Source: Niallia sp. XMNu-256 (GTDB taxonomy: Bacteria; Bacillota; Bacilli; Bacillales; Cytobacillaceae). From it: DNA of 64,000 nucleotides. A program made the position numbers and the translations under genes. A model generated the notes under the pieces. It made no database searches, was not told the DNA's origin, and saw only the letters and a program-made list of their open reading frames with translations. Each line of letters starts with the position of its first letter. Within the stretch, counting starts at the first letter, position 1. The stretch lies in contig NZ_CP137636.1 in assembly GCF_036670015.1 (NCBI RefSeq), positions 3,140,501 through 3,204,500 of the forward strand. The letters are read 5' to 3'. Below are positions 40,433 through 43,340 of the stretch, piece by piece.

Positions 40433-41071
40433 TTATCTTTTCGTTGCCTCCATAATCCACACAAAATCATTAAACCTTGTAAACGTCACATCAAGTTGGT
40501 TTTTTTCCATAATGGAAGATAATACTGGTATTGTTGTATAATATTCAGTTTGCAAGTCCTGTGCTAAATGGTGGTATTTATTATTTAATGCCTTCGTAAT
40601 GGCCTCTTGATGCTTTTCCCTTGTTTCAAAAATCGTATCTGCAAAGATTATTTTTCCACCGACTGGTAGGATTTTGCTATATAAGGCAATTGCATCTGCT
40701 TTCTCTATATCTGTTAGATGGTGAAAAGCATAAGAGCTGGCAAAGGTTTGGATTGGGATGTTTTGCGGAAAGTCGAAGAAATCCCCCTCTATAAAATCTA
40801 CCTTCTTTCCAAGCTTTCCTTTAGCAATTTTTCTCATCTCACTTGATGGTTCGACACCGATCACAAATAATTGTTTTGCTAATAACTTTTTCGTTAGATT
40901 TCCGGTACCTGGACCAAATTCAATCACGTTTCCAAAACAAAGATTAGCTACCTCTTCTAAAATTTCATCATAACGGAAAAATGCCTCTTGATATTCAAGA
41001 TCAAACCCTGCTACTGTTCGATCGTAAGTTACAGCCCATTGATTAAACAAATCAACAAAATCTTTTCCCAT
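40433..41071 (-). CDS. yrrT: SAM-dependent methyltransferase YrrT
   Basis: YrrT is a class I methyltransferase that opens the methionine-to-cysteine operon. The 212-residue protein has the SAM loop VIEFGPGTGNLTKKLL near residue 46, the acidic residue in GVEPSSEMRKIA and ASSYAFHHLTDIEKADAI. The substrate is unknown; producing SAH would feed the next genes. In B. subtilis the operon is repressed by CymR and is called yrrT-mtnN-mccA-mccB-yrhC. Here mtnN has moved to the end and yrhC is missing. I could not define a CymR box upstream. Confidence 0.92.
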   Translation of the reverse strand: MGKDFVDLFNQWAVTYDRTVAGFDLEYQEAFFRYDEILEEVANLCFGNVIEFGPGTGNLTKKLLAKQLFVIGVEPSSEMRKIAKGKLGKKVDFIEGDFFDFPQNIPIQTFASSYAFHHLTDIEKADAIALYSKILPVGGKIIFADTIFETREKHQEAITKALNNKYHHLAQDLQTEYYTTIPVLSSIMEKNQLDVTFTRFNDFVWIMEATKR

Positions 41072-41174
41072 TAACGTCCCATCCTTTATTATTCTTATCT
41101 ATATAGTATGATTTGACTTGTGTTTCGTTCCTTTAGTAGCTCTTTAAATTACAATGGATGTAACCCATTTTACG

Positions 41175-41266
41175 TGCAGCGGGTGAAATGCGTAGAGATG
41201 TGGAGGAACACCAGTGGCGAAGGCGACTCTTTGGCACATAACCGACTCGAGGCGCGAAAGCGTGGC
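41175..41266 (+). pseudogene. Fragment of a 16S rRNA gene
   Basis: About 92 bases match the 16S rRNA region around E. coli positions 680-775. The central 49 bases, from 41182 to 41230 (GGTGAAATGCG... to ...GGCGACTCT), appear identical to Bacillus 16S rRNA from memory, and the part after it, ending GCGCGAAAGCGTGG, is diverged with small changes. Flanking rRNA sequence is absent. The heptamer TTACGTG occurs at 41170-41176 and again at 41281-41287, just after the fragment. It cannot make a functional rRNA. The remainder of 41072-41495 holds only promoter-like AT-rich DNA. Confidence 0.9.
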
Positions 41267-41343
41267 TAAATAATAACAAGTTACGTGACAAACTAATGTT
41301 TGATTTAATAAAAAAAGATAATAATAAACGATAACGTCTGATC

Positions 41344-41374
41344 TTGATCTTGTTAATGTGACATTTACTATAAT
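41344..41374 (+). promoter_or_regulatory. Possible sigma-A promoter of ald
   Basis: TTGATC (41344-41349) and TATAAT (41369-41374) lie 19 bases apart, slightly wide for sigma-A. The -10 is perfect; the -35 is tentative. Confidence 0.45.
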
Positions 41375-41495
41375 ATTGTGAAAATAGACAAAAATCTGTA
41401 CGTCTTTTTTATAGGCTAAACAATGAAAAAATAAATGTGTTCATTTATTATTAAGTTAGGTAAAAACAACAAGGAATTTAAGGGAGGAATTCACA

Positions 41496-42632
41496 ATGAT
41501 AATTGGGGTACCTAAAGAAATTAAAAACAATGAAAACCGTGTTGCTTTAACTCCTGCTGGGGTTGTTTCATATGTGCACGCTGGACATAAAGTCATTGTT
41601 GAAACTGGGGCCGGAACAGGAAGTGCTTTTTCAGATGAAGAATATATTAGTGCTGGTGCAGAAATAATTGCTGATGCTGGGGATGTTTGGTCTCAAGCAG
41701 ATATGATTATGAAAGTGAAAGAACCCCTTGAAAGCGAATATAAATACTTCCGTGAAGGACTAATCCTTTTCACATACCTACACTTAGCAGCCGAACCGGC
41801 TTTAACGAAAGCATTGGTTGAAAAGGGAGTAATTGCTGTTGCATATGAAACGGTTCAATTAGGACGTGCTTTGCCATTACTTGCTCCAATGAGTGAAGTT
41901 GCTGGACGAATGGCTACTCAAGTTGGGGCCCAATACTTACAAAAAACGTATGGTGGAAAAGGAATCTTACTTGCTGGTGTACCAGGTGTTGAACGGGGAA
42001 AAGTAACAATCGTTGGTGGTGGGAATGTTGGTACAAATGCTGCTAAAATGGCAATCGGCCTGGGCGCAGATGTAACCATCCTTGATATTAGTGCAGACCG
42101 TCTTCGCCAATTAGACGATATCTTCGGAAATTCAATCAAAACATTAATGTCTAACCCTTACAATCTTGCCAAATGTGTGGCTGAATCTGATTTAGTAATC
42201 GGTGCGGTATTAATTCCTGGTGCAAAAGCACCTAAATTAGTGACTGAAGAAATGGTTAAATCAATGAAACCAGGTTCAGTGATTGTTGACCCAGCCATTG
42301 ACCAAGGTGGATCAGTAGCAACTACATATCCAACAACACATGACAATCCAACCTTTGTACTCCACGATGTTGTTCATTATGCTGTTACGAATATGCCCGG
42401 CGCAGTCGCAAGAACTTCCACAATGGCTTTGACAAACGTGACTGTTCCTTACGGTATAGAAATTGCGAACAAAGGCATTGTAAAAGCAATCGCTGAGAAC
42501 CCTGCATTAAAACTTGGTGTTAACACTGTAAACGGTGAAGTAACGTATGAAACAGTAGCCAGAGATCTAGGCTATGAATATGTACCAGTTGAGCAAGCAT
42601 TGGATAAAGAGTTATCTCAACTTATAAGTTGA
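41496..42632 (+). CDS. ald: Alanine dehydrogenase
   Basis: Ald deaminates L-alanine to pyruvate and ammonia with NAD, used for growth on alanine and during sporulation. The 378-residue protein has [23 protein letters not shown], the substrate lysine and histidine in MKVKEPL and YLHLA, and the NAD-binding [37 protein letters not shown] precedes ATG. It is monocistronic with a long leader after the 16S fragment and a strong terminator. In B. subtilis ald is elsewhere, next to its regulator adeR, which is not present here. Confidence 0.98.
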
Positions 42633-42674: not shown

Positions 42675-43340
42675 TTAGTTAGGCAGCTCCTCAACAAGTG
42701 CAGGTTTCCAACCGCCCCCATCTACCCATTCTAGATAGACCTGATATTTTTTATTGCTCTCTTTTATGATTATAGTTGCTTTAGATTTTTTGGGTCCATT
42801 ATTTTGAAGCATTTTAAGGATATCTCCTTTGCTTTGATTAAAACCTGTTGCATCAGAGACGGCTTTAAGCTGCTCATTCCAATCCACACTGCCTATATTA
42901 TAATCTTGGGCAGGCTCGACTTGTTTTGTACCAACTGGTTTCCAATTAGGATCCTTTATCGATTTTTCGTCATTTTCATTACTGTTGACTTGATCTTCTT
43001 CTATTTCCTCTGTTTCATCTACACTTTCTTGTTCGCCTTGTTCGGCTTCTTCACTTGCATTTTGGTCCTCTGTGTTATCTTTATCTACTGTGTCTTCATC
43101 CACATCAACTTCTTCTAATTGTTCCTCAGCCTCAAGTTCTTCGTTTGTATTTGCCACTGTTTGCTCAGTAGGATTGCCCGCTTCTGTCTTGGCATCTTTC
43201 CCAAAAATATTGAACGATACAATGACAATTAGTAATAGTACTATTAAAATCATCGAATTTAATATTAAATTAGTTTTTCTTCTTTTGGCTCTTTGTTCTG
43301 AACGTGATGCTTCTGTCATATTTTCCTTATTATTTTTCAA
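42675..43340 (-). CDS. yrrS: YrrS family membrane protein (DUF1510)
   Basis: The 221-residue protein has a basic N-terminus, one membrane helix (about residues 25-46), a long very acidic linker rich in Glu, Asp, Gln and Asn (about 55-130), and a conserved C-terminal domain beginning DPNWKPVGTKQVEPAQ and ending YLEWVDGGGWKPALVEELPN. This is the YrrS layout. It starts with TTG behind GAGGAG. It lies downstream of pbpI, as in B. subtilis, where both are linked to sporulation-phase cell wall synthesis. Its function is unknown. Confidence 0.9.
   Translation of the reverse strand: MKNNKENMTEASRSEQRAKRRKTNLILNSMILIVLLLIVIVSFNIFGKDAKTEAGNPTEQTVANTNEELEAEEQLEEVDVDEDTVDKDNTEDQNASEEAEQGEQESVDETEEIEEDQVNSNENDEKSIKDPNWKPVGTKQVEPAQDYNIGSVDWNEQLKAVSDATGFNQSKGDILKMLQNNGPKKSKATIIIKESNKKYQVYLEWVDGGGWKPALVEELPN

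Follow-up and report, generated by a model that had tools for sequence, protein, structure and literature searches.

A decayed 16S rRNA fragment between yrrT and ald in Niallia sp. XMNu-256

The analysed window, a 64,000-nucleotide stretch of Niallia sp. XMNu-256 DNA (contig NZ_CP137636.1, positions 3,140,501 to 3,204,500), contains an alanine dehydrogenase gene, ald (41496..42632, plus strand; TIGR00518, 597 bits), which, judging from its position compared with relatives, was inserted between two genes on the minus strand. These are a methyltransferase gene (40433..41071), identified as yrrT by position, from relatives and gene order, with no NCBIfam model above its cut-off, and a yrrS homologue (42675..43340), probably the ancestral neighbour of yrrT. 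The gap between yrrT and ald harbours a decayed 16S rRNA fragment (41167..41265, plus strand), recognized by local alignment and by a match to the SSU covariance model. At 40433-40460, the reading frame of yrrT overlaps with a yrhA-like one, and in many relatives ~450-950 bases separate these two genes. In Bacillus subtilis, mtnN occupies the yrhA-yrrT interval, and the operon studied here appears to have lost it.

When the 16S of this genome was aligned locally to 41100-41399, its positions 682-780 matched 41167-41265 on the plus strand with 90 of 100 columns identical, two one-base gaps and a score of 78, while 200 mononucleotide shuffles of the same region reached a top score of 19. The plus-strand 16S core fragment described in an earlier sequence-only reading is thus real. 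Three full 16S copies of this genome matched the segment in a genome-wide search (92% identity over 94 bases, E 9e-31), and beyond these no match was better than E 6. With Infernal, the bacterial SSU model of Rfam also matched at 41153-41233; at 26-32 bits, this match does not reach the gathering score of 50, which is unsurprising for a short, decayed fragment. The G+C content was ~0.5-0.57 within the fragment compared to 0.2-0.33 in the surrounding gap, an about twofold difference. The fragment is incomplete, with about 99 of the 1550 bases of 16S, and lies outside any rRNA operon. Neither other rRNA nor tRNA was found around it in the window, where the next best rRNA match (18 bases, E 0.03) was not credible; the isolation of the fragment, also claimed earlier, was thereby borne out.

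When the complete 16S gene was used as query, this fragment proved to be the single stray one in the genome, besides the complete copies and two 208-base ends at C1:27293 and C1:97293, which were rejected as further stray pieces because both end at assembly gaps. An assembly artefact joining 16S reads, which the sequence-only reading had named as a ground for discarding it, was considered unlikely and rejected, as the fragment differs from all own copies at ~10% of positions and the window is free of N. Elsewhere in the genome, the operon at G000:C1:11000-18500 (L107) was assembled as 16S, two tRNAs and 5S, with the 23S missing between them and no N; this is probably a collapsed assembly and may be a real deletion. 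A 71-base repeat downstream of its 5S was rejected as stray rRNA, being located within a protein gene frame (L107:3726-4691). A group II intron match (L107:190-260) and a reverse transcriptase gene (G000:C1:10118-10738) lie directly upstream of the rRNA operon.

Comparison with relatives indicated how the gap arose. Within the 1.5 kb covered, ald was present at none of their 22 yrrT loci, and a yrrS homologue stood upstream of yrrT in 14 of them. No yrrT was found in the ald loci of relatives or in 80 further ald loci, the latter also having no yrrS, and 16S sequence was found neither in the relatives' ald or yrrT loci nor in the 80 further ald loci. As relatives carry yrrT without ald and commonly with yrrS upstream, the present gap appears to have been created by the arrival of ald, which stands here between yrrS and yrrT and apart from them in relatives and was therefore inserted into an older gap. 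The location of the fragment between yrrT and ald, as first described, is correct, but this is not an old yrrT-ald gap, as shown by the absence of ald from the relatives' yrrT loci. The comparison of this gap among relatives, proposed earlier as a check, accordingly returned neither the gene arrangement nor any 16S sequence at their yrrT or ald loci.

Traces of both parent regions may still flank the fragment. On its left, 41086..41131 (minus strand) probably remains from the inherited DNA upstream of yrrT, with 74% identity over 46 bases in the relatives' locus L077 and 86% over 29 bases in L098, and on its right, 41373..41472 (plus strand) is a probable ald upstream region, with 65% identity over 103 bases to that of the closest ald found (L017). 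Both homologies are weak, so that the exact breakpoints are only loosely placed. The 16S fragment looks as though it sits in the seam between inherited DNA on the yrrT side and inserted DNA on the ald side. The same piece was absent from four genus relatives, which form the nearest comparison and are already ~20% diverged in the Ald protein. No relative carries the fragment. The earlier description of an old insertion in an intergenic gap is supported, and the insertion is specific to this lineage.

Among 33 16S loci of the family, the fragment was closest to the 16S copies of this genome and of two relatives, all sharing CTCTTTGGCC. The fragment contains an extra G inside the conserved AGCGGTGAAATGCG stretch, and GACGCTGAGG is changed to GACTCGAGG; relative to all 33 loci, AGCGGTGAAAT has gained a G, and GAC(G/A)CTGAGG has lost a base and undergone a substitution. 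Such changes at conserved sites characterize an rRNA pseudogene and, together with the own-lineage affinity, point to a 16S gene copy of this lineage that has decayed rather than to a functional rRNA variant. Copies with the identical changes (GGCACATAACCGACTCGAGGCG) were found neither in the genome collections nor in the viral collections scanned. Phages and plasmids matched only the 16S part of the query, with none matching the flanks among the matches listed.

The decay of the fragment is also uneven, in agreement with the earlier observation of an intact first half and an altered second half. The differences (8 in 95) are clustered in the second half and leave 54 consecutive columns unchanged, a run whose length or more would have P ~0.007 under an even spread. 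This clustering argues against simple neutral decay, which does not predict it. A few multi-base events would explain much of the pattern, and functional 16S copies may have overwritten the first half by gene conversion.

The TTACGTG motif at 41170-41176 and 41281-41287 had been proposed to mark insertion at a short homology. As a clean insertion duplication, this pair does not hold, since the left copy draws its ACGTG from the 16S sequence, and further repeats of 7-8 bases are common in the AT-rich gap; the right copy lies 15 bases past the end of the fragment. No transposon-like target site duplication directly flanks the insert.

Taken together, the fragment is very probably a non-functional scrap of own-lineage 16S, captured in or around the placement of ald in the yrrS-yrrT gap and followed by neutral decay. 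The ald gene would have been placed into the yrrS-yrrT intergenic region through break repair or illegitimate recombination, and the 16S piece would have been captured during, or around, that event, presumably as filler in a double-strand break sealed by end joining, with later decay by neutral mutation. We infer that ald arrived and the 16S piece was captured in a single event, by way of end joining that took up a filler piece; end joining is plausible because Ku is encoded in the genome (C1:2337238-2337783). Among the origins suggested in the sequence-only reading, capture during repair thus becomes the favoured one, with reverse transcription and operon recombination kept as lesser rivals.

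In an RNA route, a 16S rRNA fragment would have been reverse transcribed, for instance by the reverse transcriptase of a group II intron, and its copy joined into the break. Abundant rRNA is an obvious template, and the genome possesses two reverse transcriptase genes of equal score, one (C1:10118-10738) next to a group II intron match and with an rRNA operon ~2 kb away, the other at C1:1931299. The fragment has neither operon promoter nor spacer sequence, which fits an RNA origin, but a DNA fragment from within the 16S gene would look the same, and this route left no mark at the fragment in the form of a poly-A tail, an intron end or a target duplication; the RNA route is considered unlikely. 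The more specific version, in which a reverse-transcribed rRNA piece patched a chromosome break joined to the incoming ald segment, is less likely again; if true, such scars would record RNA-templated repair in bacteria. The fragment might also be all that is left at this site of a more extensive rRNA operon copy, of chromosomal or plasmid origin, which was lost by recombination and was perhaps the carrier of ald. Plasmids of related Bacillaceae carry 16S-type matches and rRNA operons are recombination hot spots; however, the window contains no other operon sequence and the relatives' ald loci contain no 16S, so that this origin is very unlikely.

That the segment has been kept because it serves some purpose, either within a small RNA or within the ald regulatory region, was judged highly improbable. 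The fragment precedes ald in the same orientation and has an unusual clean run of 54 columns, but its predicted fold does not stand out from those of shuffles (z -1.1), only weak promoter-like sites were detected, and no terminator-like site was found in the segment. Moreover, relatives are devoid of the fragment, no similar copy was found in the genome collections or the viral collections, and likeness to the relatives' ald upstream regions starts only ~100 bases downstream of it. Binding of ribosomal proteins, another suggestion made earlier, does not stand either: most 16S helix partner strands fall outside this piece, so known ribosomal protein sites are not expected to form, and shuffled sequences fold about as well. 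With no significant fold and no relative carrying the fragment, a retained function appears unlikely.

The main addition to the earlier account is that the 16S piece occupies the apparent seam of inherited and inserted DNA: capture around the arrival of ald would mean that a gene insertion can hold ribosomal DNA scrap in its seam. As a single case, it has little wider consequence beyond a small caution for 16S-based assembly screening; how bacteria patch breaks might come to light if such scraps were surveyed systematically.

The phenomenon is not unique, and the present case is a further rRNA pseudogene fragment. Three family genomes with 16S pieces not ended by assembly gaps were counted as precedents, and the partial 16S matches in L099, L100, L101 and L105 were excluded as stray pieces because they end at N characters. 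In G080, a 104-base 16S piece (positions 903-1006; L102:1594-1697) is 99% identical and outside any rRNA operon, and in G009, two 16S pieces of ~250 bases each (positions 1215-1473 and 724-963; L104:1587-2084) lie side by side in opposite orientation, away from a normal operon. The third precedent, L103, is a truncated 363-base 16S piece (94%) that lies near a protein gene resembling the one found next to an operon in the genome studied here, and may for this reason be a truncated operon, not a stray piece. In the open-licence literature, no paper dedicated to stray rRNA scraps of this kind was found, though such papers may exist elsewhere. Like other rRNA pseudogene fragments (L102 and L104), the present one is a short internal 16S piece outside an operon and diverged from the functional copies; it differs from them in its lower identity (~90% to the 16S gene compared, against 93-99% in the others) and in its position in a gene-insertion seam. 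Filler DNA at end-joined breaks would be comparable in that the fragment appears to be a short piece of unrelated genomic sequence set between DNA that was once apart, in a genome encoding Ku, whereas the junctions of the fragment are too old to retain microhomology or the original ends, and the mechanism is one that we infer.
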